Shown piece after piece: positions 33,155 to 52,810 of a stretch of 64,000 bases of DNA. A program made the position numbers and the translations under genes. How positions within the stretch are numbered: position 1 is the stretch's first letter; every line of letters begins with the position of its first letter. The notes under the pieces are model-generated. The model saw only the letters and a program-made list of their open reading frames with translations. It did no database searches and was not told the origin of the DNA. The DNA is from Spiribacter sp. 2438. GTDB taxonomy: Bacteria; Pseudomonadota; Gammaproteobacteria; Nitrococcales; Nitrococcaceae. The DNA lies in contig NZ_CP046046.1 in NCBI RefSeq assembly GCF_009676705.1, positions 1,821,501 to 1,885,500 on the forward strand, given 5' to 3'.

Positions 33155-33170
33155 GTGGCCTCCTTGGGAA

Positions 33171-33231
33171 AGTGTCTGTCCCCTATCTCGGTGACTGTCC
33201 CCTAGCGGGAAAGTGTCTGTCCTCTAATTCG
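33171..33231 (-). repeat. GGACAG repeats, three tandem copies upstream of phaC
   Basis: Copies at 33171, 33191 and 33210 (spacing 19-20 bp), all minus orientation; the middle one is the GACAGTCAC variant. They fill the gap between ybbP and phaC. Confidence 0.93.
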
Positions 33232-33264
33232 GCCGCGGGGAGCCGGGCAGGGTTCCTGAGGGGG

Positions 33265-35739: not shown

Positions 35740-36497
35740 CAGTCCGCGTCCCTCACCAGTCGGCCGTCACGCAGATAAAGCACCTGGGCGCAGCGGGCCG
35801 CCACGGCATGGTCATGGGTCACGAGGATTAAGGTGGTGCCGTGATCCCGGTTCAGTTCGAAAAGCAGGTCGATGATCTGGCCGCCGGTGCGATGATCCAG
35901 GTTGCCGGTGGGCTCATCGGCGAACAGCACTTCCGGCTGGCTGATGAAGGCCCGGGCCAGCGCGACCCGCTGCTGTTCACCCCCGGAGAGCTGCGCCGGA
36001 TAGTGGGCTAGCCGCTCGCCGAGACCGACGCGTTGCAGGGCTTCGGTGGCCCGCTGACGTGCGTGTCTGTCCCCGATCAGCTCGGCGGGCAGCATGGCGT
36101 TTTCCAGCGCGGTCAGGCCCGGCAGCAGATGGAAGGCCTGGAAGACGAAGCCGACGGTGCCGGCGCGCAGGGCGGCACGCTGGTCTTCATCCAGCTCGGT
36201 GAGGTTATGGCCCTGGAGGAAGATCTCGCCGGCGCTGGGCAGGTCGAGGCCGGCCAACAGACCCAGCAGGGTCGATTTGCCCGAGCCGGAGGTGCCGAGA
36301 ATGGCGATGGAGTCGCCTTCATCAATGCTAAAATCGAGATTCTCGAACAGACTGATTCGACCCTCGGGGGCGTCGAAGGCCATGCCCAGACCCCGCGCCT
36401 CGAGGATCGGTGCTTCTTCGGAGGACGCATCCTTGCCCCACTTTTTGTCTGTCCCATACCGGGACTGGTTGTCCGTGTTGACCGTGTCTGCTGGCAT
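35739..36497 (-). CDS. ybbA: ABC transporter ATP-binding protein, YbbA family
   Basis: 252 residues. Walker [14 protein letters not shown], signature [14 protein letters not shown], Walker [13 protein letters not shown]. Partners the YbbP permease whose start it overlaps. ATG 36497 is used; it shares bases with the divergent tesA start. A GGACAG copy is translated at GDRHARQRA, in the helical subdomain, and a second lies in the extended N-terminal tail (RYGTDKKWG) absent from the family. Confidence 0.9.
36063..36076 (-). repeat. GGACAG repeat in ybbA
   Basis: CGGGGACAGACACG, sense strand, translated GDRHA. Confidence 0.85.
36442..36463 (-). repeat. GGACAG repeat in ybbA N-terminal tail
   Basis: TATGGGACAGACAAAAA variant, sense strand, translated YGTDKK. 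Confidence 0.88.
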
Positions 36498-37131
36498 GAG
36501 GCGTCGACTCCTGTCGGTTCTATCGGTTCTGCCGGGGCTACTGGCCGCCCTGCTGGTGATGGCGCCTGCACCGGCCATGGCGGAGGGGCCGCGGGTGCTG
36601 GTCATCGGCGACAGCCTGTCCGCCGCCTATGATATGCCCACCGAGGCCGGCTGGGTGGCGCTGCTGCAAAATCGCCTCGGCGACCAGGCCCGGGTGGTCA
36701 ACGCGGCCATTAGCGGCGAGACCACCGCCGGGGCCCGCGCCCGCCTGCCGGAGGCCCTGGATCGCCACGAACCCGACGTGGTCATCATCGCGCTTGGCGG
36801 CAACGACGGCCTGCGGGGCATCCCGCTGAGCGCCTTCCGGGACAACCTGATGACCATGATCGAGGACGCCCGCAACGCCGGTGCCTCGGTGCTGCTGGCG
36901 GGTGTCCGCCTGCCCTCGAATTATGGCAGCGCGTTTATCGATCGGTTCCTTGGTGTTTATGAAACCGTCGCGGAGGAAACCGGGGTCGCCTTCGTGCCAC
37001 GGCTGCTGGATGGCGTGGCCGAGGATCGGGCCATGATGCAGGCCGACGGCATTCACCCCAACCGCGACGCCCAGCCGGTCATTCTGGAGAACGTCTGGCC
37101 AGAACTGGAGCCCCTGCTCAACCGCGACTAG
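36496..37131 (+). CDS. tesA: TesA, periplasmic SGNH lysophospholipase/thioesterase
   Basis: 211 residues with a signal peptide (to about residue 29, ending AMA). SGNH motifs: catalytic Ser in VIGDSLSAAY, Gly in SGETTAG, Asn in LGGNDGL, and the Asp-His pair in ADGIHPN. Cleaves acyl esters in the periplasm. ATG 36496 overlaps the divergent ybbA ATG; GTG 36484 is an in-frame alternative. Its TAG overlaps the stop of the convergent gene. Confidence 0.92.
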   Translation: MRRRLLSVLSVLPGLLAALLVMAPAPAMAEGPRVLVIGDSLSAAYDMPTEAGWVALLQNRLGDQARVVNAAISGETTAGARARLPEALDRHEPDVVIIALGGNDGLRGIPLSAFRDNLMTMIEDARNAGASVLLAGVRLPSNYGSAFIDRFLGVYETVAEETGVAFVPRLLDGVAEDRAMMQADGIHPNRDAQPVILENVWPELEPLLNRD

Positions 37132-37901
37132 TGGAGCGCCGCCGGCAGGCGGACGCTCATGGTGATGGGCAGGTGGTCGGAGAGCGGCGCATCCAGCACT
37201 TCGGCGGTCTCCACCTCGAGGCTGCGAGAGACCAGAATGTGGTCGATGTTGCGCGCCGGCCGCCAGCTCGGATAGGTGGGCAGATCGTGTAGCGGCTCTC
37301 TCAGGCCGGTTTCCCTGCAGAAATATCCCAATTCCGGACTGCGGGAATGGCAGTTGAGATCGCCCATGACGATGACGTGGTCGCTGTCCGCCACCTGCTC
37401 GGCGACGTAGGACAGTTGCGACAGCCGGGCGCGCTGACTGAGTGCCAGATGCAGCAGCACCACCACCAACTCGGCCTTGGGCGTGCCAAACCGCAGCATC
37501 AGCGCCCCTCGCCCCGGAATTCGGCCCGGCAGCCGATGCTCAATGACTTCGCGGGCCGGCAGGCGGCTTAGCAGGCCATTGCTGTGCTGGGCAAAACGTC
37601 CCAACGGACGATTGGTCTGGTGGTACCAGTGAGGAAAAGCCGCCGAGCGGGCCAGGAAGGCGGTCTGGTCGACAAAGCCACTGCGCAGGCTGCCCGCGTC
37701 AAGCTCCTGGAGCCCCACCAGGTCGAATTCGCCCACGAGGTCGGCGATGCGACGCAGATTGGGCAGTCGCCCCGGGTCCGGCAGCAGATGCCGCCAGCCC
37801 CGGGTGAAGTACTGGTGGTAGGTTCGGGTCTGCATGCCCACCTGAATATTGAAACTCATCAGGCGCAGGGTGGCAGGCAGAGTGGCGATGTCGCCGCTCA
37901 T
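37128..37901 (-). CDS. Endonuclease/exonuclease/phosphatase family protein
   Basis: 257 residues: LMSFNIQVG, LVGLQELDAGS, MGDLNCHSRSPELG and the terminal SDHLPITM, the metal and catalytic motifs of the DNase I-like fold. Substrate unknown; related proteins hydrolyse nucleic acids or phospholipid/phosphodiester bonds. ATG 37901 is seven bases from the dsbA stop, so it is probably cotranscribed with dsbA. Confidence 0.85.
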   Translation of the reverse strand: MSGDIATLPATLRLMSFNIQVGMQTRTYHQYFTRGWRHLLPDPGRLPNLRRIADLVGEFDLVGLQELDAGSLRSGFVDQTAFLARSAAFPHWYHQTNRPLGRFAQHSNGLLSRLPAREVIEHRLPGRIPGRGALMLRFGTPKAELVVVLLHLALSQRARLSQLSYVAEQVADSDHVIVMGDLNCHSRSPELGYFCRETGLREPLHDLPTYPSWRPARNIDHILVSRSLEVETAEVLDAPLSDHLPITMSVRLPAALH

Positions 37902-37908
37902 GGATTGT

Positions 37909-38535
37909 TCAGCGTGCGGCTTCCTCGGCGACAAGCGACTCGGCCACTTCCAGCATGCCCGCCTGGCCACCCGCGGCCCGAATGTCGATCAGGTGCTGAC
38001 CCGCGACGGCCACCGATGGCGTCCCCGGAATGGCAAAGGCGTCCACCGCCCGCTGGGAACGATTGAGCGCGGTCTCCACCGAGAAGGAGCGCATGGCATC
38101 CAGCACCTCCTCCGCCGTGAAGTCCGTCACCTCGGCGTAGAACTCGGCGATGGCTTCGCGATCCTCAAAGGACCGGCCCTGGTCATGAATGGCCTCGTAC
38201 ATGGCCCCGTGGGTCTGGTCGACAACGGCCAGCGCTTCAGCGGTGTGGAAGGCCCGGGCCAGCAACTCCCAGCTGTCACGGCCGAAGGTCACCGGCGTCT
38301 TCACCAGCGTGATGCGATCGCCCATCCCGGCAGCCCAGTCACTCATGCGCGGTTCGAAATCGGCGCAGTGAGGGCAGGCGTAGGAAAAGAACTCGCGAAC
38401 TTCAACGCCGCTGCCCTGGGTGGGCAGCGGGGTGTCGAGACTTCGGTAGGGCTGGCCCTGGGCCAGCGCCGTGCTGCCGCTGAACGCCAGCAGCAGGCCG
38501 AGAACCATCACCACCGCTTGTCCGGGAAAACGCAT
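37909..38535 (-). CDS. dsbA: Thiol:disulfide interchange protein DsbA
   Basis: 208 residues: signal peptide ending at ALAQ (about 26) and the DsbA active site CPHC (C54, C57) in FFSYACPHCADFEP, with cis-Pro in IPGTPSVAVAG. Introduces disulfides in the periplasm. ATG 38535 has AGGAGA upstream. Lies just downstream of the cytochrome c maturation genes, fitting redox handling of apocytochromes. Confidence 0.94.
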   Translation of the reverse strand: MRFPGQAVVMVLGLLLAFSGSTALAQGQPYRSLDTPLPTQGSGVEVREFFSYACPHCADFEPRMSDWAAGMGDRITLVKTPVTFGRDSWELLARAFHTAEALAVVDQTHGAMYEAIHDQGRSFEDREAIAEFYAEVTDFTAEEVLDAMRSFSVETALNRSQRAVDAFAIPGTPSVAVAGQHLIDIRAAGGQAGMLEVAESLVAEEAAR

Positions 38536-38560
38536 CAACAAATCTCCTTTCATGAATGGA

Positions 38561-39727
38561 CTACAACTCACCGTAAGAGTGCAGTCCGGAAAGGAACATA
38601 TTGACCCCCAGGAAGCAGAATGTCGTCACCAGCAGACCGATGATGGCCCACCAGGCCATGAAACGCCCCCGCAGGCCTTTGGTATACCGCAGGTGCAGCC
38701 AGCCGGCGTAGTTCAGCCAGACGATCAGTGACCAGCTCTCCTTGGGATCCCAGGACCAGTAGGCACCCCAGGCTTCCGCCGCCCACAGGGCGCCCAGAAT
38801 GGTGGCCACCGTAAAGAAGGCGAAGCCGAGGGCGATGGAGCGGTAGCTGATGTCATCAATCTGCTTGAGCGTCGGCAGCCGCTGGGCCCAGACGCTGTCG
38901 TCGCTGACCCGATCGCGGATCAGGTATGCCACCCCCAGCATGGCCGCCAGCGCAAAGGCGCCGTAGGCGATGAAGTTGGTGGGCACGTGGATCTTCATCC
39001 AGTAGCTGTTGAGCGCGGGCACCAGGGGCTCGATCTGATAGGCCTGGCGATCGAAGTGGTACCACAACAGAAAGCCAATGGACGCGGAAATGATCAGCAG
39101 CACGAAAAAGCCCAGCTGCCGGGTGCGGTAGGCACCCTCGTAGTAGAGGTAGAGCAGCGCGGTGACGACCGCGAACAGCACGAACACCTCGTAGAGGTTG
39201 CTCACCGGGATGTAGCCGATGCCCCCTTCGAACAGATGGGTCTCGTGCCAGCGCACCAGCAGGCCGACGAGACCGGCGCCGGCGGCGATCCAGGTGAGCC
39301 GCGAGGCGACCCGGGCGGTGAAGTCATTGCCGGTGAAAAGCGCCGCGCCGTAGGCCAGTGTCGCCGCCGGGAAGAGCGCACTCATCCACATGATCGCGGA
39401 CTGGCTGGAGAGCAGATAGCGCAGGAAGAAATCGCTGTCCGCGGCCGCCAGGTCCGGATAGCGGGAAATGGCGAACAGGCTGACGGCGCAGACCAGCCCC
39501 ATGTAGAGCCGCCCCCCGTGCCAGTGCCAGCCCATGCCGATCATCGCACCGGCGGTGAACAGGGTAATCACGACCTCGTAGCGGTTCATGGCGTCCCAGA
39601 GCACGGTGCAGGTCACTGCCGTGGCCACCACCACCAGGGCGGCCCAGAACCAGTCGCCGGGCGTCAGCCGCTGAAGCAGCGACGGCCGGCGCATGGAGCG
39701 GATCATTTCGTCGCGGGAGGCAACCAT
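38561..39727 (-). CDS. ccsA: System II cytochrome c biogenesis protein CcsA/ResC (often named CcsB)
   Basis: 388 residues, about ten membrane segments. The haem-handling WWD-type motif is AEAWGAYWSWDPKESWSL, with a conserved His in WLHLRYTKG. With ResB it carries haem to the outside and ligates it to apocytochrome c. The ATG at 39727 directly follows a GGACAG repeat whose GAGGA lies seven bases upstream, so the repeat appears to provide the ribosome binding site. Confidence 0.9.
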   Translation of the reverse strand: MVASRDEMIRSMRRPSLLQRLTPGDWFWAALVVVATAVTCTVLWDAMNRYEVVITLFTAGAMIGMGWHWHGGRLYMGLVCAVSLFAISRYPDLAAADSDFFLRYLLSSQSAIMWMSALFPAATLAYGAALFTGNDFTARVASRLTWIAAGAGLVGLLVRWHETHLFEGGIGYIPVSNLYEVFVLFAVVTALLYLYYEGAYRTRQLGFFVLLIISASIGFLLWYHFDRQAYQIEPLVPALNSYWMKIHVPTNFIAYGAFALAAMLGVAYLIRDRVSDDSVWAQRLPTLKQIDDISYRSIALGFAFFTVATILGALWAAEAWGAYWSWDPKESWSLIVWLNYAGWLHLRYTKGLRGRFMAWWAIIGLLVTTFCFLGVNMFLSGLHSYGEL

Positions 39728-39742
39728 GTGTCTGTCCTCAAT
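39727..39742 (-). repeat. GGACAG repeat forming the ccsA ribosome binding site
   Basis: Minus strand TTGAGGACAGACACATG: the repeat is joined directly to the start codon. Confidence 0.88.
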
Positions 39743-41813
39743 TCTCTCGGGCGGGGTCGTCCGCCGGGTTCAGATGCTGGTCGACCGCGTCGGCCAGTTG
39801 TTCAAATTCTTCCTCGAACTGCTCCGGCCGGCGCTGGTTGGCACCGCCCATCAGGAGCTCGCCGCCGCCGGTCTGACCGGGCTTGACCAGCGCCCAGACC
39901 CGTCGCTGGGAGACATAGAACAGCAGAAACACCCCGAGGGTCAGCAGCGCCGAGCCGGTGTAGACGATGCTTTTGCCCGGCGCCCGGGTAATCTGCAGGC
40001 CGGTGGCCTGACGATGCTCGAAATGGTTGAGCTGAAAGATCAGCGGCGCGCCGTACTCGGCCGCGGCAGAGACCGCGTTCATGGCCTCTTCAAAGAAAGC
40101 GCGCTGCTCGGAATCGGTCTGGATGGAGGCGGGCATCACGCCCCGCTGATCCGCCAGCACGTCCCGATAGACCTCGTAGAGTGTTCGCTGCAGCACTGCC
40201 TCGGAGAACTCGCGAATCATCCCGGGACGACTGGCGCCGGCGGCCCGCTCATCCAGCTCGGCGCTCACGCCGCCAAAGCCCTGGGTGAGCAGGGTGTCGA
40301 TCATGCCATGGGCGGTGCCGGCCACCCGATCACCGAGATCGGAGCCGGGCACGCCCATCTGCCCCAGCAGTCCGTCCGCCGCCCGTCGGGACGCGCCGGC
40401 CACCGCCTCGGGACGATGCAGCGCGTCATGGAAGGCCAGGAAGGTGTCCATGGAGTAGTTATGGTCCGCGGGAATATGCAGATAGCGGAACGGCTCCTCG
40501 GCACCCATGCGCATGCCATGCAGGAAGTACCACCGGTCCTCGATCTCCACCGGAGCCATGTAGTTGCGGTATTCGCGGGCCTGTCCGGCCTCGTCGCGCA
40601 GGGTAAAGGTGTAGGACGGGCCGGAGTTGATGAACTCACTGCTGCCCCCGGTGCGCTCCACCGAGCGGGTGTCCCGGTTGATGTTCAGCAACTCGAAGCC
40701 GTCGATCCGCAGCTCCCGCTCGAGACCGCCCAGCTGCAGATCATAGGTCTCGAAGACCCGGGCATCGAGCTCCATCACCTCACCCGATCCATCCAGAAGA
40801 TGCCCGGTCAGATAGAGACTGGAACCGCCATCGGTAAAGCTCGCCTGGTAAATGGTATGACCGCGGTGGGTGAGCGGGTAGTTCACACCGATGGTCTCGC
40901 GGATGGGCTCATCCAGGGTGGGGTCGTGGATGACCAGATCGCTTTCGTAGGACCGGGGCGCGCCGTTGGGAAAATAATCGATCCGGAACTGCTCGACTTC
41001 GATGGTGAAAGGCAGCTCCTGGACCAGGTAGCCATCGCGCATCTGCAGGAAGGACACCTCGGAGCTGGCGCCCTCGGGGATGGTGACATTGCCGCGAAAT
41101 GCCCCGCTTTCGGCGGCCACCCAGCTTTCGGCAGGCACTTGGGACACCCGCAGATCGCGGGTCTCGATCTGGAGGTTGCCGGTGAACTCCTGGAATTTGA
41201 GGTAGAGGTTGCCGTCAACCAGGGCGCCGATGGCGATCACCACCACGGCCACGTGGGTGAGCACGTAGCCAATGCGGGTGGCTGCACCTTTCATGCCGGC
41301 CACCACCACGATGTCGCCGCGGGCCTCGGTGCGGGTGCGGTAACCGTGAGCCTGGAAGGCGGCTTCGGCCACATCCTGCAGTTCACCGGTGCTGTGGGCG
41401 CTGTCCCAGTGGCGGTGCTGACGCAGGGCAAGGAGCGACTGTTCCCGAACCCGGGTGCGGTAGCGGGTGATTTCTCGCCAGACGCTGGGGATGTGCCGGC
41501 TGACGCAAATCCCGGTGGAGAGGATCAGGAACCCGAGAATGAACAGAAACCAGCTGGCGGAATAGACGTCGTAGAGGTTGAGGACGCGAAACACCTCGAA
41601 CCAGAACGGACCGAACTGAATCAGGTAGGTGTTGAAGGTCTCGTTCTGTGGGAGCACCGTGCCGATGACCGAGGCGATGCTCACCACCACCAGCAGGGTG
41701 ATGGCCAAGTTCATCGAGCCCAGGAATTCGAGCCAAATGCCGCCCAGGCTCTTGCGCGGTTGTCCGCGAGAGTCGGGGCGGCTGGCGCTCATGCTGGCGG
41801 CGGTCTCGGCCAT
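39738..41813 (-). CDS. resB: System II cytochrome c biogenesis protein ResB (Ccs1)
   Basis: 691 residues: three N-terminal membrane segments (FLGSMNLAITLLVVVSIASV, then two more), a long periplasmic domain, and a final segment (SIVYTGSALLTLGVFLLFYV) before the cytosolic tail. It forms the haem-ligation complex with CcsA, whose start lies inside the end of this gene. Presumed client: the cytochrome c4 encoded just upstream on the same strand. Confidence 0.92.
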   Translation of the reverse strand: MAETAASMSASRPDSRGQPRKSLGGIWLEFLGSMNLAITLLVVVSIASVIGTVLPQNETFNTYLIQFGPFWFEVFRVLNLYDVYSASWFLFILGFLILSTGICVSRHIPSVWREITRYRTRVREQSLLALRQHRHWDSAHSTGELQDVAEAAFQAHGYRTRTEARGDIVVVAGMKGAATRIGYVLTHVAVVVIAIGALVDGNLYLKFQEFTGNLQIETRDLRVSQVPAESWVAAESGAFRGNVTIPEGASSEVSFLQMRDGYLVQELPFTIEVEQFRIDYFPNGAPRSYESDLVIHDPTLDEPIRETIGVNYPLTHRGHTIYQASFTDGGSSLYLTGHLLDGSGEVMELDARVFETYDLQLGGLERELRIDGFELLNINRDTRSVERTGGSSEFINSGPSYTFTLRDEAGQAREYRNYMAPVEIEDRWYFLHGMRMGAEEPFRYLHIPADHNYSMDTFLAFHDALHRPEAVAGASRRAADGLLGQMGVPGSDLGDRVAGTAHGMIDTLLTQGFGGVSAELDERAAGASRPGMIREFSEAVLQRTLYEVYRDVLADQRGVMPASIQTDSEQRAFFEEAMNAVSAAAEYGAPLIFQLNHFEHRQATGLQITRAPGKSIVYTGSALLTLGVFLLFYVSQRRVWALVKPGQTGGGELLMGGANQRRPEQFEEEFEQLADAVDQHLNPADDPAREN

Positions 41814-41952
41814 GGCTCGCGTTCTATTGCTCGGTCAGTGGGTCATCAAGGGTGTTGGGGGGAAGTTGATCACACTCTTCTCGCGCCTTCCTTGCCCGGG
41901 GTCAAGGGGTCGTTCGCGCCCCCGCTTTCATGGCGAGGGTTGGCACTGGAGC

Positions 41953-41974
41953 AAGGCCGCATCGCTGCGGCCTT
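41953..41974 (-). terminator. Hairpin downstream of cytochrome c4 gene
   Basis: AAGGCCGCA-TCGC-TGCGGCCTT, a 9-bp perfect stem in the 221-bp gap between the cytochrome c4 and resB genes. It lacks a long T tract, so termination is plausible rather than certain. Confidence 0.5.
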
Positions 41975-42034
41975 CTCTGCCCGGATCACACCGACTTTCG
42001 CTAGCCGGTTGGATAATGACCCGTCAGCGACTCG

Positions 42035-42673
42035 TTAGTCGGCTGCCACTTCCCGCGGGTAGAGGCCGCGCACGTAGTGGGCAAGCGCCTGAATCTCGTC
42101 ATCGGTCAGTTCGGCGGCGATTTCGTTCATCATGCCCGCCAGACCATAACCGCCTCGATCACCAGATCGATAAGCCATGAGGGTATCGCTGGTGTATTCG
42201 ACTTTCTGCCCACTCAGCATGGGGTAACCACTGCTGGGGACACCCAAGCCCGCCGGGCCATGGCAGCTTATACAGGCCGGGACGCCACGCTCGGCAATGC
42301 CGCCCATGTAGATGCTGCGGCCGGTGGAGAGGAGTTCTTCGGGGGTTTCGCCCACTTCCGGCTCGAGCCCTTCAAAGTAGACCGCCAGATCCGCCATGGT
42401 CTGCTCGTCGAGGTTGGCGGCCTGTCCAAGCATGATGGCGTTTTCCCGCTCGCCGGACTTGTAGAACTGCAACTGCGCGAAGGTGTAATCGGCGTGCTGT
42501 CCGGCCAGATTGGGCCATTCACCCATGTTGCTGACGCCCTTGGCACCATGACAGGCGATACAGGTCTGGGCGGCTTCCTCGCCGCGCACGGGGTCGGCGT
42601 CTTCCAGCTGCGCGTGGGCCATGGGAGCCGCGAGCAACAGGGCGGCGAGGGCGATCGACTTCTTGGGGATCAT
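42035..42673 (-). CDS. Cytochrome c4, dihaem
   Basis: 212 residues: signal peptide to about residue 21 (AHAQ) and two class I c-type halves, each with a CxxCH site (CIACH at 38-42 and CISCH in the second half) and a Met ligand region. Periplasmic electron carrier to terminal oxidases. ATG 42673 gives a proper signal peptide; the longer start adds eight residues. Sits upstream of the resB-ccsA maturation pair. Confidence 0.92.
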   Translation of the reverse strand: MIPKKSIALAALLLAAPMAHAQLEDADPVRGEEAAQTCIACHGAKGVSNMGEWPNLAGQHADYTFAQLQFYKSGERENAIMLGQAANLDEQTMADLAVYFEGLEPEVGETPEELLSTGRSIYMGGIAERGVPACISCHGPAGLGVPSSGYPMLSGQKVEYTSDTLMAYRSGDRGGYGLAGMMNEIAAELTDDEIQALAHYVRGLYPREVAAD

Positions 42674-42757
42674 GGTTGGCGGTAACCTCCGGTACAATCG
42701 CTGACTTTATACCAACGGCCCCTTTGGCGGTCAATTTCCATCAGGGTCAAAACCCGC

Positions 42758-43396
42758 ATGCCACTTGACTATCGTCGGACCCAGTTTCTGCTTTCCGCCC
42801 CGGAACCCGAGCAGCTCCCCGCCGACCTGGGCGCGGAGGTGGCCTTCGCCGGCCGCTCCAACGCCGGCAAATCCAGCGCCCTCAACGCCATCACCGATCA
42901 ACGGTCGCTGGCCCGCGTCAGCAAAACCCCCGGCCGCACCCAGGCCATCAATGTTTTCCCGGTAGGGGACAGACACTCTGCTTCGGTAGAGGACAGACAC
43001 TTTCCCGCGGCGGAATATCGGCTCATTGATCTACCCGGCTATGGGTATGCCAAGGCGCCGGAGGCATTGCGACGTCACTGGCAACGGGCCCTGCCGGCTT
43101 ACCTTGAAGGCCGCCAGAGCCTGCGAGGGCTGGTGGTGATCATGGACATCCGCCATCCGCTGGGACCGCTGGACGAGCAGATGCTGGCCTGGGCCAACGC
43201 GGCAGAGCTGCCGGTGCACGTCCTGCTGAGCAAAGCGGACAAGCTTCGGCGGGGCCCGGCGGGCAACACTTTGCAGCGCGTACTGCCCGCCATGCGTGCC
43301 ATCTGCCCGGCCAGTACGGCTCAGCTGTTCTCGGCGACCAACCGCCAGGGGGTGGACGCGGCGAGGCGGAAGCTGGATGAGTGGCTGCTGGGGTAA
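42758..43396 (+). CDS. engB: Ribosome biogenesis GTPase YsxC/EngB with repeat-encoded insertion
   Basis: 212 residues. G1 GRSNAGKSS (32-40), G2 in SKTPGRTQ, G3 DLPGYG, G4 SKADK, G5 SATN. Essential for 50S assembly in most bacteria. Between NVF and DLPG E. coli has nine residues and this protein about 23: the extra 14 are encoded by two tandem GGACAG repeats (VGDRHSASVEDRHF). The frame is intact and all G motifs remain, so the gene should be functional with an enlarged beta-hairpin near switch II. Confidence 0.94.
   Translation: MPLDYRRTQFLLSAPEPEQLPADLGAEVAFAGRSNAGKSSALNAITDQRSLARVSKTPGRTQAINVFPVGDRHSASVEDRHFPAAEYRLIDLPGYGYAKAPEALRRHWQRALPAYLEGRQSLRGLVVIMDIRHPLGPLDEQMLAWANAAELPVHVLLSKADKLRRGPAGNTLQRVLPAMRAICPASTAQLFSATNRQGVDAARRKLDEWLLG
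42963..43005 (+). repeat. GGACAG repeats, two tandem copies in engB
   Basis: TAGGGGACAGACACTC (42963 on) and TAGAGGACAGACACTTTCCC (42987 on), 24 bp apart, both in frame as V(G/E)DRH. Confidence 0.95.
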
Positions 43397-43468
43397 TGGT
43401 GGCGACGCCGCTGAGCCGGGGGCGGAGCAACCCTGCCCGACACCCGGCCATGCGGCGCCATCGGACAT

Positions 43469-43506
43469 AAAAAAACCCCGAAGGCCATGGGGGGTAGCCT
43501 TCGGGG
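43469..43506 (-). terminator. Intrinsic terminator downstream of polA
   Basis: Minus strand CCCCGAAGGC, 11-base loop, GCCTTCGGGG, followed by seven T residues. Confidence 0.92.
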
Positions 43507-43592
43507 ACGTCGGACTCGGCCTTGGGGGCACAACCGAGCCCGAAGACCCGCTAGAAAGGGAGGGAGTAGCGGGTCGCGCCGGGCACTGGCGC
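43470..43592 (-). ncRNA. Putative small RNA between polA and engB (ErsA/Spot42 position)
   Basis: A sigma-E-like promoter (43599-43626) and a strong intrinsic terminator bound about 123 nt on the minus strand downstream of polA. In E. coli Spot42 and in Pseudomonas ErsA occupy this same polA-engB gap, and ErsA is driven by the sigma-E homologue AlgU. I cannot show sequence homology; the call rests on position, promoter and terminator. Confidence 0.5.
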
Positions 43593-43598
43593 ATCTGG

Positions 43599-43626
43599 TA
43601 TGACCAAACCCGACGAATGGAAGTTC
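43599..43626 (-). promoter_or_regulatory. Sigma-E-like promoter in polA-engB gap
   Basis: Minus strand GAACTT (43626-43621), 15-base spacer, GGTCATA (43605-43599), close to the sigma-E consensus GGAACTT/GGTCAAA. Confidence 0.5.
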
Positions 43627-43641
43627 ACCACCAATGGATAA

Positions 43642-46371
43642 TCAATGGGCCGCTTCCCAGTTCTCGCCGATTCCCACTTCCACTTCCAGGGGCACTTCCA
43701 GCCGGGCCGCGTCGGCCATGAAGCCGCGCACGCGCTCGCTGACCTCGTCAATGTGTCTGTCCTCTACCTCAAGGACGAGTTCGTCATGGACCTGCATGAC
43801 CAGTGTGGCGCCGGGGGATTCGCGCCGGATCCAGTCGTCGACGGCGATCATGGCGCGTTTGATGATGTCCGCTGCCGTGCCTTGCATGGGGGCATTGATG
43901 GCGGTGCGCTCGGCGTACTGGCGACGCTGGTTGTTGCGGCTGTTGATTTCGGGCAGGTAGAGCCGGCGGCCAAAGACGGTTTCGACATAGCCCCGCTCGT
44001 GCGCCATGTCGCGGGTCTGGTCCATAAAAGCACGGACGCCGGGATAGCGTTCGAAATACCGGTCGACGTAGGTCTGCGCCTCACCCCGCTCAATGCCGAG
44101 CTGGCGGGCGAGCCCCCAGGCGGACATCCCGTAAATCAGACCGAAATTGATGGCCTTGGCCGCGCGGCGCTGATCGCGGCTGACCTGATCGGGCTCGCCG
44201 CCGAATACTTCGGCGGCGGTGGCGGCGTGAATGTCCTGACCCTCGGCGAAGGCCCGCAGCAGGCTCTTGTCTTCGGAAAGATGAGCCATGATTCTCAACT
44301 CCACCTGGGAGTAGTCCGCCGCCAGCAGGCGATGTCCGTCAGTGGGAATAAAGGCGCGCCGAATCCGCCGGCCCTCGGCGCTGCGCACCGGGATGTTCTG
44401 CAGATTGGGGTCGGAAGAGGACAGACGCCCGGTGGCGGCCACCGCCTGGTGGTAGGACGTGTGGACGCGCCCGGTTTCCGGGTTGATCAGCGTCGGGAGC
44501 TTCTCGGTATAGGTCGACCGCAGCTTGGAGACGCCACGATAGTCGAGGATCAGGCGGGGCAGCTCATGACCCTGTGCCGCCAGCTCCTCGAGCACCGACT
44601 CGGCGGTGGACGGCGCTCCCTTGGGGGTCTTTGAGAGGACAGGCAAACCCTGCCGTTCGTAGAGGATTTCCTGGATTTGTTTGGGGGAGCCGAGATTGAA
44701 GGGCCCGCCGGCGGATTCGTGCGCCTTTGCCTCGAGGGCCAGCATGGTCTCGGCGAGCTCACCGCTCTGCTCCGCCAGCAGTCGGGCATCCACCCGCACG
44801 CCGGTCTGCTCCATGCGGGAGAGGACAGGCAAAAGCGGGATCTCGATTTCCTCATACACGGCCTTCGGGCCTTCGCGTTTGCCAAGGCGCGGCCAGAGGT
44901 GTTCGTGGAGCCGCAGCGCAATGTCGGCGTCCTCCGCGGCGTAGGGCGCCGCGTCCGCCAGCGCCACCTGATCGAAACTCAGCTGCTTGGCGCCTTTGCC
45001 GGCGACCTGCTCGTAGGTAATGGTCTGGTGATCCAGGTACTTGAGCGCCAGCGAGTTCATGTCGTGGCGGCTGGCCGTGGCATCCAGGCAGTAGGACTCG
45101 AGCATGGTGTCGTGCACCACGCCTCGCAGCGTAATGCCGTGATTGGCCAGAACGCTCATGTCGAACTTGAGATTCTGGCCGAGTTTGTGTCTGTCCTCTT
45201 TCTCGAGCAGTGGCCTTAGCCGCTCCAGCGTCTTGTCTCGATCCAGTTGCTCGGGCTGGTCAGGACCGGTGTGTGCCAGTGGCAGGTAGGCCGCGGTGCC
45301 GGCTTCCACGCAGAAGGACACCCCCACGACACGGGCGCGCCGGTACTCCAGGCTGTCGGTTTCCAGATCCAGAGAGAACACCGCCGCCTTTTCCAGCCGA
45401 TCGATCCATTCTTCCAGGGTCTCTTCGTCCTGGATGCAGGTGTAGTCAGTTGGGGGACAGTCGAATTGGGAAGCTGATGTTTGACTGTCCTCTACCTCGG
45501 CATTGTGTCTGTCCTCTACCCGCAGTTCGCGCAGCCAGCTGTTAAAGCCGAGGCGGCGGTAGAGGACAGACAAAGCGTCGCGGTCGGGATCGTTGCGGCG
45601 CAGGTCGGTGGGCTCGACGGGGAGGTCGACGTTGCAACGGATGGTGGCGAGTTCGCGGGAGAGGTCGAGGGCGTCCAGGTGTTCGCGCAGGCTCTCGCCG
45701 ACCTTGCCGCCGATCTGGTCGGCGTTGTTCCGGATGTCGTCCAGGGAGCCGAACTGGTTCAGCCACTTGGCGGCGGTCTTGGGGCCGACCTTGGGGACGC
45801 CAGGGATGTTGTCGGAGCTGTCCCCCACCAACGCCAGATAGTCGATGATGCGCTCCGGCGGGACGCCGAACTTGTCCACGACGCCATCGTGGTCCAGCAC
45901 GGTATTGGACATGGTGTTGAGGAGGGTGACGTCACCATTGACCAGCTGGGCCATGTCCTTGTCGCCGGTGGAAATCACCAGCTCCAGGCCGGCGGCCCGC
46001 CCCTCAACTGCCAGTGTGCCGATGACATCGTCGGCCTCGACGCCGGTCACTTCGACCAGCGGCAGACCCATGGACTCGACCACCTCTTTGAGGGGGGCGA
46101 TCTGCGCCGCCAGGTCCTCCGGCATGCTGGGCCGATTGGCCTTGTACTCGGCAAAGAGGTCGTCCCGGAATGTCCGCCCCGGCGCGTCAAAAACCACGCC
46201 GATATAGACCGGCTGGTAGTCATCCAGCAGCCGCCGAAGCATGCTGATCACGCCATAAATGGCGCCGGTGGGATCGCCCTCGGGGCTGGTGAGCGGTGGC
46301 AGCGCGTGGTACGCGCGGTACAGGTAGGACGAGCCATCCACCAGGACAAGGCGCTTGGCAGCATCGGACAT
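43642..46371 (-). CDS. polA: DNA polymerase I
   Basis: 909 residues with all three activities: 5'-nuclease (residues 1-290, LVDGSSYLYRAYHAL, GDSSDNIPGVPKVG), 3'-5' exonuclease with catalytic acids in FSLDLETDSL, and polymerase (DYSQVELRIMAH, RRAAKAINFGLIYGMS, VMQVHDELVLEV). ATG 46371 follows GAGGAAA. Six GGACAG repeats are translated: three in the linker after the 5'-nuclease (RVEDRHNAEVEDSQ and FDCPPTD), one just before it (LSVLYRRL), one at LEKEDRHKLGQ, and one near the C-terminus (LEVEDRHIDEV) that replaces native residues without altering length. Confidence 0.96.
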   Translation of the reverse strand: MSDAAKRLVLVDGSSYLYRAYHALPPLTSPEGDPTGAIYGVISMLRRLLDDYQPVYIGVVFDAPGRTFRDDLFAEYKANRPSMPEDLAAQIAPLKEVVESMGLPLVEVTGVEADDVIGTLAVEGRAAGLELVISTGDKDMAQLVNGDVTLLNTMSNTVLDHDGVVDKFGVPPERIIDYLALVGDSSDNIPGVPKVGPKTAAKWLNQFGSLDDIRNNADQIGGKVGESLREHLDALDLSRELATIRCNVDLPVEPTDLRRNDPDRDALSVLYRRLGFNSWLRELRVEDRHNAEVEDSQTSASQFDCPPTDYTCIQDEETLEEWIDRLEKAAVFSLDLETDSLEYRRARVVGVSFCVEAGTAAYLPLAHTGPDQPEQLDRDKTLERLRPLLEKEDRHKLGQNLKFDMSVLANHGITLRGVVHDTMLESYCLDATASRHDMNSLALKYLDHQTITYEQVAGKGAKQLSFDQVALADAAPYAAEDADIALRLHEHLWPRLGKREGPKAVYEEIEIPLLPVLSRMEQTGVRVDARLLAEQSGELAETMLALEAKAHESAGGPFNLGSPKQIQEILYERQGLPVLSKTPKGAPSTAESVLEELAAQGHELPRLILDYRGVSKLRSTYTEKLPTLINPETGRVHTSYHQAVAATGRLSSSDPNLQNIPVRSAEGRRIRRAFIPTDGHRLLAADYSQVELRIMAHLSEDKSLLRAFAEGQDIHAATAAEVFGGEPDQVSRDQRRAAKAINFGLIYGMSAWGLARQLGIERGEAQTYVDRYFERYPGVRAFMDQTRDMAHERGYVETVFGRRLYLPEINSRNNQRRQYAERTAINAPMQGTAADIIKRAMIAVDDWIRRESPGATLVMQVHDELVLEVEDRHIDEVSERVRGFMADAARLEVPLEVEVGIGENWEAAH
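43751..43768 (-). repeat. GGACAG repeat in polA C-terminus
   Basis: GGTAGAGGACAGACACATT, sense, translated VEDRHI just after the catalytic HDELVLE. Confidence 0.9.
45186..45201 (-). repeat. GGACAG repeat in polA exonuclease domain
   Basis: AAAGAGGACAGACACA, sense, translated KEDRHK. Confidence 0.88.
45449..45576. repeat. GGACAG repeats, four copies in the polA linker
   Basis: Copies at 45449 (+), 45480 (-), 45502 (-) and 45559 (+). The outer pair 45502/45559 forms a perfect 15-bp inverted repeat; 45449/45480 shares GGACAGTC/GACTGTCC. Confidence 0.92.
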
Positions 46372-46406
46372 GGAAGTTTCCTCGTATGGTCGCGCGTCGG
46401 CGCGGA

Positions 46407-48575
46407 TCAGACGCGCTCGAGATTGGCGTAGGCGGCCACCAGCCATTTCTGGCCCACCTGATCGAAGTTGACCTGGATGCGGGCGTTCGGCCCGCTGCCC
46501 TCGCAGTCGAGCACAACGCCCTCGCCGAACCGGCTGTGCTGGACTCGTTCACCAAGGTTGAACTGGGCCTCGGCCACGGGTCCGTTGCCGAAGCCGTTGG
46601 CCGCGGCGCCCGGGCCCGTGACCGAAAAGCGCGCCCGCACTTCGTCCACCAGTTCCGGGGGCAGCTCCCGAATGAAACGGGAGGCGATGCCGAACTCGTC
46701 CCGACCGTGCAGCCGCCGCCGCTCCGCGTAAGTGATGACCAGGCGCTGGCGCGCCCGGGTGATGCCCACATAGGCCAGTCGCCGCTCCTCTTCCAGCCGG
46801 CCGGGCTCTTCGGCGGACATGCGATGGGGGAACAGGCCCTCTTCCAACCCCACCAGAAACACCACCGGAAACTCGAGGCCCTTGGCCGAGTGCAGCGTCA
46901 TGAGCTGGACACAGTCCTCCCAGGCATCTGCCTGTCCCTCACCGGCCTCCAGCGCTGCATGGGAGAGGAAGGCGGTGAGGGTGTCCATGCCGTCCTCGAT
47001 GGTGGCGTCCTGCTGGAAGTTGCGGGCGGCGGTAATCAGCTCGTCAAGGTTCTCAAGGCGGTCCTGGGCCCGCTCGGAGCGGTCCTTGCCGACGTGCGCC
47101 CGAAGCCCGCTGCGGTCGAGCACCGTCTCCAGCTGGTCCGCGAGGTCGCTGTCGGCGGTCTCGGCGTCGAGGCGGTCAATCAGGCCAACGAAGGCGCCCA
47201 GCGCGTTGGCCGCCCGGGCTGGGAGGACACCGCGGTTTTCCATCAGTCCCACCGCCGCGCGCCAGAGACTGACGTCCTGCTCGCGGGCGTTCAGGCGGAT
47301 GGCTTCAAGGGTGCGGTTGCCGATGCCTCGGGTCGGGGTGTTGATGATGCGCTCCAGCGCCGCGCTGTCATCGCGGTTGGCAATCAGGCGCAGGTAAGCC
47401 AGGGCGTCCTTGATTTCTGCCCGCTCGAAGAATCGCAGCCCGCCATAGACCCGATAGGGAATGCGGCGTGAAAGCAGGGCCTCCTCGAAGGTCCGGGACT
47501 GGGCGTTGGAGCGATACAGGATCGCCGTGTCACTGCGCGCCAGGCCCTCCTCTTCCACAAGGGTCTGCAGGCGCTCGACCACGAATCGGGCCTCGTCCTG
47601 CTCGTTGAAAGCGGCATACAGCGCAATGGGTTCACCCTGCTGACCCTCGGTCCAGAGCTTTTTGCCCAGCCGGTCGCTGTTGCGGGCGATGAGGGTGTTG
47701 GCGGCCTCGAGAATGGTGGCGGTGGAGCGGTAATTCTGCTCCAGCCGCATCACCCGGGTGTCTCCATAATCGGTGCGGAATTGCTGCAGGTTCTCCACCC
47801 GCGCTCCGCGCCAGCCATAGATCGACTGGTCGTCGTCGCCGACGATAAAGACGTCGGCCTCGGGGCCGGCGAGCAACTTGAGCCACTGATACTGGATGCC
47901 GTTGGTGTCCTGGAATTCGTCCACCAGCACGTGGCGGAATCGCCGGCGGTAGTGGCTCAGCAGTTCCAGATGGTTCTGCAACATTTCCACCGTGCGCAGC
48001 ATCAACTCGGCGAAATCCACCACGCCGGCACTCCGACAGGCGGCTTCGTAGGCGGCGTACACCCGGGCCATCTGACCGCTGTAGGGGTCGCTGGTGTCGA
48101 GATCTTCCGGACGCTCGCCGGCGTCCTTGCGGGCGTTGATGAAGCCCTGGATCTGACGCACCGGCCAGCGGTTCTCATCAATCTCGAGATCCCGCATGAC
48201 GCGCTTGACCAGCCGGCGCTGGTCCTCGCTGTCGAGGATCTGGAAACCCTGGGGCAGGCCGGCCTCCTGCCAGTGAAGTCGCAGCAGGCGATGAGAGAGA
48301 CCGTGGAAGGTGCCTACCCACATGCCGGAGCCGGAAATGCCGAGCAACTGCTCGATGCGGCCCCGCATTTCGGCGGCGGCCTTGTTGGTGAAGGTGACTG
48401 CCAGCAGATTGTACGGCGTGGCGCCCTCCACACGAACCAGCCAGGCGGCGCGGTGGGTCAGGACTCGGGTCTTGCCACTGCCGGCGCCCGCCAGCACCAG
48501 GGCGCGGCCCAGCGGTGCGGCGACGGCTTCGCGCTGAGCATCGTTGAGCGGGTCAATCAGATCGGAGACGTCCAT
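46407..48575 (-). CDS. uvrD: DNA helicase II UvrD
   Basis: 722 residues, standard length. SF1 motifs: LNDAQREAVAAPLGRALVLA (Q motif), AGAGSGKTRVL (I), FTNKAAAEM (Ia), VDEFQDTN (II), DDDQSIYGWRGA (III), EQNYRSTATIL (IV), TLHSAKGLEFPVV (V) and GITRARQRLVI (VI). Unwinds DNA in mismatch and excision repair. ATG 48575 gives the canonical N-terminus. Free of repeat copies. Ends 35 bases before polA starts. Confidence 0.96.
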   Translation of the reverse strand: MDVSDLIDPLNDAQREAVAAPLGRALVLAGAGSGKTRVLTHRAAWLVRVEGATPYNLLAVTFTNKAAAEMRGRIEQLLGISGSGMWVGTFHGLSHRLLRLHWQEAGLPQGFQILDSEDQRRLVKRVMRDLEIDENRWPVRQIQGFINARKDAGERPEDLDTSDPYSGQMARVYAAYEAACRSAGVVDFAELMLRTVEMLQNHLELLSHYRRRFRHVLVDEFQDTNGIQYQWLKLLAGPEADVFIVGDDDQSIYGWRGARVENLQQFRTDYGDTRVMRLEQNYRSTATILEAANTLIARNSDRLGKKLWTEGQQGEPIALYAAFNEQDEARFVVERLQTLVEEEGLARSDTAILYRSNAQSRTFEEALLSRRIPYRVYGGLRFFERAEIKDALAYLRLIANRDDSAALERIINTPTRGIGNRTLEAIRLNAREQDVSLWRAAVGLMENRGVLPARAANALGAFVGLIDRLDAETADSDLADQLETVLDRSGLRAHVGKDRSERAQDRLENLDELITAARNFQQDATIEDGMDTLTAFLSHAALEAGEGQADAWEDCVQLMTLHSAKGLEFPVVFLVGLEEGLFPHRMSAEEPGRLEEERRLAYVGITRARQRLVITYAERRRLHGRDEFGIASRFIRELPPELVDEVRARFSVTGPGAAANGFGNGPVAEAQFNLGERVQHSRFGEGVVLDCEGSGPNARIQVNFDQVGQKWLVAAYANLERV

Positions 48576-48634
48576 GCGTCCGAAGTATATCAGCGGGCTG
48601 CCGGGCCGAGGCAGCGGAACCAAGCCGCGGCGAT

Positions 48635-49552
48635 TCAGGCAGCGACGAGTTCCCGCACCGGCGGGAGGTCACGAATGAGCTGGGCCAGTGCCTCCACCAG
48701 CTGGTTACGGGCACAGCCGCGTCGCCGGTAAATGGCGAGCTCCCGGGTCGGCGGGTTGGCGGCGAAGGATCGAATGGCGAGGGACTCGGTGCCTGTCCCC
48801 AACTGATGGACGGCCAGCATCGGCAGCAGGGTGATCCCGGCGCCGGAGGCCACCATCTGGCGCAGGGTCTCGAGACTGGTGGCCCGGAAATCCTGCTGCT
48901 GCTGGGCGCCCACCCGGGAGCAGAAATCCAGGGCCTGGTCGCGCATGCAGTGGCCTTCTTCCAGCAGCAGCATGCCAAGGGTGTCCAGGTCGCTGCGCCT
49001 AATCGCGGGACTGTCCGCCAACGGATGATCGGCGGGGAGCGCCACCAGGAACGGTTCGTGGAAGAGATGCTCGGCGATCAAACGATCTTCGGGGATGGGA
49101 GTGCCCATGATGGCAGCGTCCAGGCTGCCTTCTCGGAGCCGCTCGATGAGGCCGCTGGTGCGCTCTTCGTGCAGCAGGACATTCAGGCTTGGGAACTGCT
49201 GCCGCAAAGCGGGGAAGAGGTGCGGAATCAGGTAGGGGCCGAGGGTGGGAATCACCCCGAGGCGCAGGTCCCCGCTCATCGGATCCCCGGCCGCCCGGGC
49301 GGCATCCACCATGTCGTCCACCTCGCCGAGGATCCGCCGGGCGCGGTCACTGATGCTGCGGCCGATGGGCGTCACGATGACCCGCTTGCTGGTGCGCTCC
49401 ACCAACTGGACGCCGAGATACTCCTCGAGCTTTTTGATTTGCGTGCTGAGGGTGGGCTGGCTGACAAAACACGCCGCCGCCGCCCGACCGAAATGCTGGT
49501 GATCTGCCACCGCCACCAGATAGCGCAGATCCCGGAAGTTGATGTGTGTCAT
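48635..49552 (-). CDS. oxyR: Hydrogen peroxide sensor OxyR
   Basis: 305 residues, LysR family. N-terminal winged helix (FRDLRYLVAVADHQHFGRAA, SQPTLSTQIKKLEE) and the redox pair of cysteines in EEGHCMRDQALDFC, matching C199/C208 of E. coli OxyR. Activates peroxide defence genes. ATG 49552 fits the family N-terminus; an in-frame upstream extension consists of translated repeats. One variant repeat (48789) lies near the C-terminus (LGTGTE). Confidence 0.95.
   Translation of the reverse strand: MTHINFRDLRYLVAVADHQHFGRAAAACFVSQPTLSTQIKKLEEYLGVQLVERTSKRVIVTPIGRSISDRARRILGEVDDMVDAARAAGDPMSGDLRLGVIPTLGPYLIPHLFPALRQQFPSLNVLLHEERTSGLIERLREGSLDAAIMGTPIPEDRLIAEHLFHEPFLVALPADHPLADSPAIRRSDLDTLGMLLLEEGHCMRDQALDFCSRVGAQQQQDFRATSLETLRQMVASGAGITLLPMLAVHQLGTGTESLAIRSFAANPPTRELAIYRRRGCARNQLVEALAQLIRDLPPVRELVAA
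48789..48803 (-). repeat. GGACAG repeat variant in oxyR
   Basis: GTTGGGGACAGGCACC, the GACAGGCAC variant, sense strand. Confidence 0.6.
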
Positions 49553-49611
49553 CGGATCATTCGCCGCTCCAGATTTTGTGAGTTTATCGCGTTGGGGGCG
49601 GCGGAGCGAAG

Positions 49612-49733
49612 TAGGGGACAGACACTTTTGGAGGTCGGGGGCAAAGGTAGGGGACAGACACATTTGAGCGGACACATTTGAACGGACGCGCTCACGAATA
49701 GAGGACCGCTCAGAGATAGAGGACAGTCAAAAG
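49612..49733 (+). repeat. GGACAG repeats, cluster upstream of oxyR
   Basis: Good copies at 49612, 49648 and 49717 and a decayed one at 49699 (TAGAGGACCGCTCA). Between them ACACATTTGAGCGG is itself partly duplicated (49660-49685). Confidence 0.92.
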
Positions 49734-49738
49734 ACGGG

Positions 49739-49773
49739 CAAAAAAAAACGCCGGTGCCCAGCAGACACCGGCG
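49739..49773 (-). terminator. Intrinsic terminator of znuA
   Basis: Minus strand CGCCGGTG, nine-base loop, CACCGGCG, then eight to ten T residues, 31 bases after the znuA stop. Confidence 0.92.
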
Positions 49774-49803
49774 GTGGTTGGTTGGTCTTTGGCTAGCGCT
49801 GAA

Positions 49804-51018
49804 TCAGGCGTCGCCGGCCAGGCAGCCAGCCAGGCTCTCCGCCATCTGCATCATGAGCTGGGAGTAGAAATCCGGGCCCTCGGGAATTTCCGTGCCCAGC
49901 GGATCCAGCACGGCGGTACGGGCGTCGGTTCCTTCCATCACTGTTTCCACCATGGCCGGGTTAAACTGCGGCTCGGAGAAAACACAGCTCACGCCAAAGT
50001 CCCGAACCCGCTCCTGGACGCGAGCAATGCGAGAGGCGCTCGGGTCGGAGGCATCGGTCACCGAAATGGAGCCGACGGCTTCTACCCCGAAGCGGTACTC
50101 GAAGTACTGATAGGCATCGTGGAAGACCACGAATGTCTCACCCTGCACCGGCTCTACCAGCGCCTCGATGTCCGCGATCAACGCTGTCATACGCTCCTGA
50201 CCGGCGTCTGCGTTGGCCTGATAAGCATCGGCATTGGCGGGATCGACTTCAGCCAGCGTATCAGCGATCACTGAGAGCCAGACACGGGCGTTGACCGGAT
50301 CCAGCCAGGCATGAGGATCCGTCCCCTCATGGGCGTGGTCATGGCTATGGCCATGATCGTGGTCGTCGTGGCCGTGGTCGTCATGACCATGCCCGTGATC
50401 ATCGTGCCCATGATCGTCATGACCGTGCCCGTGATCATCGTGTCCATGGTCATCATGGCCGTGCCCGTGATCATCATGCCCGTGGTCGTCGTGACCGTGC
50501 CCGTGATCATCGTGCCCATGATCGTCGTGGCCGTGGTCGTCATGACCGTGCCCGTGATCATCATGCCCGTGGTCGTCGTGACCGTTGCCGTGGTCATAAC
50601 TGTCCATGTGATCGCGGTACTCGTGCTGCACTGCACCTTCTGCTGTCAGCAACTCCACACTGACGGCATCGCCCGCCAGGTTACGCAGGGCGCGCTCGAA
50701 ATTGGGCGCGAGGGATTCGCCGGCCCAGAAGACCACCTCGGCTTCTTCGAGCGCCGCCGCCTCGGACGGCCGCAGGGAGTAATGGTGGGGGGACGCGCCC
50801 CGCCGAATGATGAGACCCGGCTCATCCACGCCATCCATGACTTGTGAGACCAGAGAGTGAATCGGTGCAATATCCGCCACCACTTTGGGAGCCGCCGAGA
50901 CCGGCAACGCCAGCATGATCGCCGCACCCGCGGCGACCGCTGCGCCCAGCGGACGATTCAGCCATTTGCCTGTCCCATAACGAGGTTCCCGCAAGGAACC
51001 ATGGGGTTCATTCAACAT
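49804..51018 (-). CDS. znuA: Zinc ABC transporter substrate-binding protein ZnuA
   Basis: 404 residues: signal peptide (about 25-48, ending VSAAP), two ZnuA lobes (VVADIAPIHSLVSQVM; GETFVVFHDAYQYFE), and between them a very long His/Asp/Gly loop (about residues 138-235) built from DDHGHDDHGHGH units. Zinc ligands include His in the IHS and FHDAY regions. The loop in E. coli is about 25 residues, so this one is strongly expanded. ATG 51018 follows AAGGAGA. A GGACAG copy is translated just before the signal peptide (RYGTGKW). Confidence 0.93.
   Translation of the reverse strand: MLNEPHGSLREPRYGTGKWLNRPLGAAVAAGAAIMLALPVSAAPKVVADIAPIHSLVSQVMDGVDEPGLIIRRGASPHHYSLRPSEAAALEEAEVVFWAGESLAPNFERALRNLAGDAVSVELLTAEGAVQHEYRDHMDSYDHGNGHDDHGHDDHGHGHDDHGHDDHGHDDHGHGHDDHGHDDHGHGHDDHGHDDHGHGHDDHGHDDHGHGHDDHGHDDHDHGHSHDHAHEGTDPHAWLDPVNARVWLSVIADTLAEVDPANADAYQANADAGQERMTALIADIEALVEPVQGETFVVFHDAYQYFEYRFGVEAVGSISVTDASDPSASRIARVQERVRDFGVSCVFSEPQFNPAMVETVMEGTDARTAVLDPLGTEIPEGPDFYSQLMMQMAESLAGCLAGDA
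50325..50610 (-). repeat. Tandem repeat encoding ZnuA His-rich loop
   Basis: Alternating 15-bp and 24-bp units of the form GAT/GAC-CAC-GGC encode DDHGH motifs. Coding repeat with variable unit order, likely to change length by recombination. Confidence 0.9.
50966..50982 (-). repeat. GGACAG repeat in znuA 5' end
   Basis: TTATGGGACAGGCAAAT variant, sense, translated YGTGKW. Confidence 0.8.
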
Positions 51019-51033
51019 TTCAGTCTCCTTAAA

Positions 51034-51056
51034 ACTTTTGTCTGTCCCGTACCGGA
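51034..51056 (-). repeat. GGACAG repeat in znuA leader
   Basis: TACGGGACAGACAAAAG, sense orientation relative to znuA, ending just before its Shine-Dalgarno site. Confidence 0.9.
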
Positions 51057-51088
51057 GGAATCGTGACAATTCCAACCCATGAACGGAA

Positions 51089-51105
51089 TGTTATACTATA
51101 TCATA
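51089..51105. promoter_or_regulatory. Zur-box-like palindrome between znuA and znuC
   Basis: TGTTATACTATATCATA resembles the Zur operator TGTTATAnTATAACA with one or two mismatches and lies in the znuA/znuCB divergent promoter, where zinc-loaded Zur would repress both operons. Confidence 0.72.
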
Positions 51106-51133
51106 TTTTAGTTCTTCCGGAAGTATCCCGACT

Positions 51134-52733: not shown

Positions 52734-52810
52734 GTCCCGCGCTGATTGACAGGGCTCGGCGTCGGCTGTGAATCTGCAGTGACTTTGTGTGGTGGTCACG
52801 GAGAACCGAC

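Follow-up and report, generated by a model that had tools for sequence, protein, structure and literature searches.

RAYTs have been called the first domesticated bacterial transposases, and two other kinds of short bacterial repeat bear comparison with the locus described here. The palindromic elements of Rickettsia are repeats that lie in frame within protein-coding genes, as does the insert found here in the GTPase EngB, but they are long palindromes spread over the genome, whereas the Spiribacter motif is a non-palindromic word of 10-18 bp confined to one zone. The uptake sequences of Neisseria and Pasteurellaceae are short and non-palindromic, occur about once per kb, within genes and on both strands, and fall into dialects. 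The motif described here does likewise, although uptake sequences are genome-wide and have no linked transposase, while this motif is local.

Three classes of Y1 transposase stand nearer to the locus. RAYT/REP systems (REPIN, BIME) couple an HuH Y1 transposase, usually with one full-length gene per repeat type, to cognate short repeats, which can sit in frame inside genes (PMC3733652, PMC6006769). The Spiribacter locus resembles them in its enzyme type and its short motif; however, a REP is a hairpin on a GTAG/GTGG foot, and its copies are found genome-wide and mainly between genes, whereas the Spiribacter motif forms no stable hairpin, is intragenic in about 70% of its copies and keeps to the surroundings of its gene. 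TIRYTs (TIRtrons) place a Y1 transposase between inverted repeats, and their common motif GGGGWSAS resembles GGGGACAG (PMC3733652). Those described belong mainly to subclass 2.1 and none to subclass 2.3 (PMC6006769), and a local cloud of sites, positional conservation and dialect turnover are undescribed for them. Subclass 2.3 of the TnpA_Y1/TnpA_REP proteins, finally, yielded no associated repeats by automatic or manual search (PMC6006769). At the Spiribacter locus, by contrast, a protein much like this subclass is surrounded by a 40-kb cloud of a motif, GGACANNCA(C), that also lies beside its homologues in many genera.

The window analysed is a 64-kb stretch of the genome of Spiribacter sp. 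2438 (G000), and its features are collected in Table 1. The engB product scores 205 bits in a profile search with TIGR03598, against a cut-off of 124, and its G1-G4 motifs, read by eye as GRSNAGKSS, DLPGYG and SKAD, mark it as a TRAFAC GTPase and are intact, as the initial annotation had stated. In an alignment with E. coli EngB (1PUI), one gap of 14 residues separates NVFPVGD from RLIDLPGYG, in agreement with the annotated excess of about 14 residues from NVF to DLPGYG. Within the DNA of the insert, GGTAGGGGACAGACACTCTGCTTCGGTAGAGGACAGACACTTTC, the word TAGRGGACAGACAC occurs twice at a distance of 24 bp, and the extra residues are indeed the in-frame translation of these two repeats. They do not form a clean tandem duplication, however, and an exact one was rejected as their origin because neighbouring copies in the surrounding zone are mostly separated by unrelated spacers.

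The insert occupies the turn that leads from switch I to the G3 motif. This region had been expected to be constrained, but the turn varies in length among congeners (5-8 residues where the motif is absent), so that its tolerance of an insert is not surprising. The loop has 19 residues here against 5-8 in congeners, an excess of 11-14 residues; G013 was left out of this listing, as it appears only in the alignment of the protein region. The annotation had named relatives that share the insertion without the repeat as the case against its reading. That check came out in favour of the annotation: species without the motif in the engB region have a short, motif-free loop. All six species that carry it there (6/6) have their own dialect of it in the EngB loop, whose length ranges from 5 to 36 residues. 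In one of them, G006, the motif (CTGGACACCCAC) is present with no added length. Since the site is common to all six species, each in its own dialect, the comparison identifies it as old and maintained rather than as a recent insertion.

The EngB copies belong to a dense local array. Forty GGACAGWCAC sites occur in the whole 1.90-Mb genome, and 36 of them lie within C1:1846326-1884896, a zone that makes up about 2% of it (binomial P ~1e-56); this genome-wide count rules out a dispersed mobile repeat. Within the window, GAGGACAGACACTTT with up to three mismatches is found 27 times where 0.8 would be expected, and the 14-mer TAGRGGACAGACAC was found in none of 13 congeners. Sites in the zone come at a density near one per kb and are found on either strand and in each of the six reading frames, which implies that the constraint acts on the DNA. 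With gene calls from a simple script, the 47 strict sites divide into 14 outside called genes, 6 at gene ends or unaligned, 16 colinear with motif-less congeners and 11 indels; site 36063, tallied as extragenic, is in fact colinear and inside an uncalled ORF. Because 16 of the 47 are colinear at unchanged gene length, new sites are not always insertions. At most of the five strict sites in polA, the protein has the same length as PolA of congeners. Where neighbouring copies are no more than 36 bp apart they nearly always share a strand, the commonest distance being 18-24 bp, and no stable hairpin was found in the motif (z -1.2 to +1.2), in contrast to the substrates of characterised TnpA_REP enzymes. 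The earlier label of a mobile-type repeat is thus partly right: the copies form a repeat family with a link to a transposase, but they are not spread over the genome and not every site is an insertion. A phage or defence origin was set aside, as searches of PHROGs and PADLOC gave no match.

Table 1. Features of the engB region, in window coordinates
Feature	Position	Strand	Remarks
motif zone	24826..63396 (38.6 kb)	both	36/40 genome GGACAGWCAC sites; 47 sites GGACAG[AT]CA[CA]; all six frames
paired motif copies	24826..24859	-	linker of AA-kinase/GNAT fusion protein, absent from congeners
three intergenic motif copies	28053..28103	+	spacing 22 and 19 bp
three intergenic motif copies	33172..33222	-	spacing 19 and 22 bp
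engB (YihA/YsxC GTPase)	42758..43396	+	212 aa; TIGR03598 205 bits; 1PUI E=2e-63
motif copy 1, EngB loop	42963..42976	+	TAGGGGACAGACAC; sequence
motif copy 2, EngB loop	42987..43000	+	TAGAGGACAGACAC; sequence
polA	43642..46446	-	five strict motif sites: 43753, 45187, 45481, 45505, 45564
motif copy near RAYT-like gene	55772..55781	-	26 bp upstream of ORF GTG; 98 bp upstream of conserved ATG
RAYT-like Y1/HuH transposase gene	55879..56862	+	~327 aa from conserved ATG; inside zone; PF01797, NF047646, HuH/Y, model

At a distance of 12.5 kb from engB lies a RAYT-like gene, whose ORF is open from a GTG at 55807 (55807-56862). In profile searches its product reaches 28.3 bits with PF01797 (cut-off 23) and matches the curated REP_Tyr_transpos model NF047646 with E=4e-12, although its 46 bits remain below that model's cut-off of 80. 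The HuH signature (H71-x-H73) and the tyrosine segment Y183-V-D-L-N-P are invariant in all 29 aligned transposase sequences. An AlphaFold model (mean pLDDT 84) finds its best fold match in the PDB in 4ER8, TnpA_REP bound to a REP hairpin (E 1.6e-3, probability 1.00, TM 0.56 by target length), followed by ISDra2 and related IS200-type transposases. With its HuH motif, catalytic tyrosine and predicted Y1 core, the protein can be assigned to the Y1/HuH transposases of the IS200/IS605-RAYT superfamily, and on its sequence is a divergent relative of RAYT/TnpA_REP. The dispersed, GTAG/GTGG-footed hairpins typical of RAYTs are not found with it: no stable hairpin forms, GTAG is unconserved across dialects and the sites are local. 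Its length of 327 aa (subclass 2.3 median 325), HuH-to-tyrosine spacing of 110-112 residues (median 110) and long C-terminal tail instead agree with subclass 2.3, a branch of the RAYT superfamily (PMC6006769), and the motif sites are probably the cognate sites of a protein of this subclass.

A second, shorter Y1 transposase gene (C1:1805710-1806045, locus L003) lies outside the window, in a region with IS3-like transposase sequence, and is adjoined by a loosely similar repeat, GAATACGGGGACAGATTTATTTTC. As a partner of the motif this gene was rejected: it is 40 kb off the zone, the repeat upstream of it is only loosely similar, and the gene within the zone is a much better match.

Across the genus, the motif zone occurs at two chromosomal locations, zone B in the engB region and zone A elsewhere, and surrounds the RAYT-like gene wherever the gene is found. 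Eleven of 14 Spiribacter genomes, a sample made up in part of MAG contigs, carry the gene in a total of 12 copies, each within a motif zone (G000, G001, G002, G004, G005 with two copies, G006, G008, G009, G010, G012 and G013). It is the sole zone-B gene that is present in the zone species, missing from that region elsewhere and found in zone A of G001 as well. Those congeners that lack the motif near engB have a zone A with the dialect GTTTGGGACAGGCAC, at 112-147 kb in G001, 1557-1588 kb in G002, 1869-1905 kb in G004 and near 1675 kb in G013. The form of the motif is GGACA-NN-CAC, and every dialect fits RGACA-NN-CA(C), the dialect words including GGACAGACAC, GGACACCCAC, GGACAGGCAC and AGACACCCAC; a k-mer census of the engB region returned TACTGGACACCCAC in G006, TAGTGGACAGGCAC in G008, and AGACACCCAC in G005 and G007. 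Each gene copy has one main dialect. S. salilacus (G005) has two RAYT-like genes about 190 kb apart on contig C12, one in zone A and one in zone B, each zone with a dialect of its own, and these two sets of gene, zone and dialect form a natural internal control.

The two zones differ in shape. In zone A the motif is about equally dense on the two sides of the gene within 15-20 kb of it, while zone B reaches 35-40 kb on the 5' side of the gene and about 10 kb on its 3' side. Copies in zone A favour the strand opposite to that of the transposase gene (G001, G002, G004, G010, G012, G013); a consistent strand bias toward gene or replication fork was dismissed, as it is seen in zone A of most species and absent from zone B of most. 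As a separate observation, the engB region of G012 and G013 contains about four GTTCCACGTGGAAC-like (parS-like) words, both strands taken together.

Sites are kept in place far better than their surroundings. In zone A, 24 of 25 sites are identical between G001 and G013 against 15.8% of control 10-mers of the same composition, 22 of 26 between G001 and G004 (control 9.0%), 25 of 25 between G013 and G012 (7.6%) and 12 of 15 between G002 and G001 (4.9%). Retention of sites thus exceeds that of background 10-mers by a factor of about 4 to 16, in counts that, like those of coincident positions below, ignore kinship among the species. Conservation of the core columns is 75-100%, with at least 95% for most pairs, against about 70-80% for the flanks. 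In zone B it is position that is retained while the word differs. G000 (GA) and G008 (GG) share 22 of 51 aligned sites, 21 of them on the same strand, where 0.5 would be expected by chance, G008 and G006 share 15 of 45 (0.4 expected) and G006 and G005 15 of 38 (0.4 expected), and at most of these shared positions the dialects differ. Dialects therefore change in concert, with position and strand kept.

The presence of sites also follows the presence of the gene. G000 and G006 retain the gene neighbourhood of zone A (about 134-184 kb on C1 of G000) without its transposase, and the generic motif is absent from the aligned zone-A sites in these two genomes (0/8, 0/9, 0/5 and 0/6). In G005, which is more diverged but has the zone-A gene, exact copies remain at 3 of 9 and 5 of 9 zone-A sites. 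Zone-A sites are thus absent where the zone-A gene is absent.

A scan of the genomes of 84,980 species recovered 475 relatives. Homologues were found in gammaproteobacteria similar to the Chromatiales and Alteromonadales in which subclass 2.3 is frequent (PMC6006769). Around 69 of the relatives' loci, including four of Spiribacter type, GGACANNCA occurs 617 times against 143 expected. The template ranks first of 16,384 in 8 of the 69, and in about a third of these wider loci its enrichment is not clear (ranks above 10%). Among the 35 loci with full flanks, the four Spiribacter-type loci being left out, the first kilobase on the two sides holds 127 copies against 9 for a scrambled control, and counts beyond it are near background. 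As copies upstream, at -75 to -180, lie on the gene strand and those downstream, near +200, on the opposite strand, the motif in other genera is a set of terminal-type inverted repeats, mostly just outside the gene, in which these homologues resemble TIRYTs. A clean inverted pair was not seen flanking the Spiribacter genes, although flanking pairs were seen at many homologues in other genera.

In Photobacterium salinisoli, which has four copies of the gene, 20 of the 50 GGACAGACAC sites are no farther than about 16 kb from them. In Wenzhouxiangella XN79A one gene has four motif copies on either side, and Woeseiaceae and a few gammaproteobacterial MAG loci have 15-19 copies across several kb. 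The wide cloud may nevertheless be a trait of the Spiribacter lineage, as the motif elsewhere lies mostly in the first kilobase beside the gene. A contig filed as a Klebsiella pneumoniae MAG (L149), a label that is probably wrong, carries the transposase with 19 copies of GGACATCCA.

We consider it likely, at roughly 70%, that the insert in EngB is a single site within the motif cloud of the RAYT-like HuH transposase, which acts in cis and keeps copies of its dialect in place. The Spiribacter cloud is best read as the outcome of transposase action, or of selection for that action, in cis. GGACA-NN-CAC is most likely a putative recognition or cleavage site of the RAYT-like protein, which would bind or cut the motif (candidate target GGACANNCAC). 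The locality of the zone would follow from action almost only in cis, roughly 20-40 kb around the protein's own gene, within which it would keep current-dialect copies at many positions that tolerate them: between genes, in the loops of proteins and at residues of core genes that vary. Sites may arise and persist through nicking with strand transfer or through conversion of near-matches, a local homing-like process, and also through short insertions. In EngB, this process would have lengthened a surface turn and left the G motifs untouched. The RAYT-like gene thereby seems to control the sequence of its own chromosomal neighbourhood, essential genes included. A more specific version, in which a domesticated HuH transposase converts near-matches within 20-40 kb in cis, in core genes too, and converts every one of them anew after a change of specificity, is offered tentatively, as falling short of an even chance.

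The conservation of sites is compatible with selection for host use as well as with active rewriting. It could be, though we think it rather unlikely, that the protein has been domesticated and works at the motif array, for example in nucleoid or segregation order, replication or repair, each site being maintained by purifying selection for binding and with no rewriting. A passage of PMC8266576 that cites Bertels et al. 2017 describes RAYTs as behaving like housekeeping genes. Most congeners have one gene per genome, the sites have kept their positions over the long term with flanks at 70-75% identity, and in those genomes in which zone A and zone B can both be placed, neither is more than about 210 kb from engB. 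Against such a platform stand the presence of the zone at two chromosomal places, the zone-A place being motif-free where the gene is missing, and the change of dialect at dozens of sites; in addition, no partition motif is known to have the form GGACA-NN-CAC.

Ordinary transposition would explain the inverted copies that flank the gene in other genera and the 11 of 47 sites that are indels relative to congeners. The motif would then be the terminal repeat of a TIR-type Y1 element, as in TIRYTs with their GGGGWSAS terminal repeats (PMC3733652), and the sites leftovers of local hopping with neither function nor upkeep. Such debris should decay, yet the sites are kept well above background, dialects change in concert and 16 sites are colinear replacements, and this reading is accordingly disfavoured and appears improbable. 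A role in DNA uptake or recombination, with molecular drive through transformation that helps the linked gene to spread, is suggested by the density of about one per kb, the use of both strands and of coding genes, and the dialects, all as in Neisseria and Haemophilus; it is very improbable, as uptake sequences are genome-wide, whereas 36 of the 40 sites here fall in 2% of the genome around an HuH gene. Slippage or a chance or protein-level repeat in EngB, for which one might cite the variable loop length of all species, has a negligible probability and is refuted by the genome-wide clustering and by the recurrence of the same DNA motif on either strand, in each of the six frames and also outside genes.

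The wide, concertedly evolving motif cloud appears to be new. Literature word searches for the motif (GGACAGACAC, GTGCCTGTCC) gave unrelated papers only among those listed, and no description of a wide zone, of positional conservation or of concerted turnover was found in the literature searched. A transposase family without reported repeats now has a probable cognate motif that can be read from sequence, with natural dialects and a clear spatial limit, and one cultured species, S. salilacus, offers two independent gene-motif pairs. The DNA-level demands of a single gene seem to shape residues in the essential proteins encoded near it, EngB and PolA among them, a caution to readers who would take such insertions as protein adaptation. 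If true, rewriting by the transposase would amount to a local, templated sequence drive in bacteria.

Two further stretches of the window deserve mention in their own right. Positions 50358-50597, inside a 423-aa ORF on the reverse strand (49804-51075), consist of dense 36/51/87-bp repeats that read as His/Asp-rich sequence, as in metal-binding loops. An accessory island at 2228-6646, missing in most congeners, holds a nucleotidyltransferase-like pair (3184-4360) and a PIN-domain-like toxin ORF (6218-6646) with a small ORF upstream, all named by eye.
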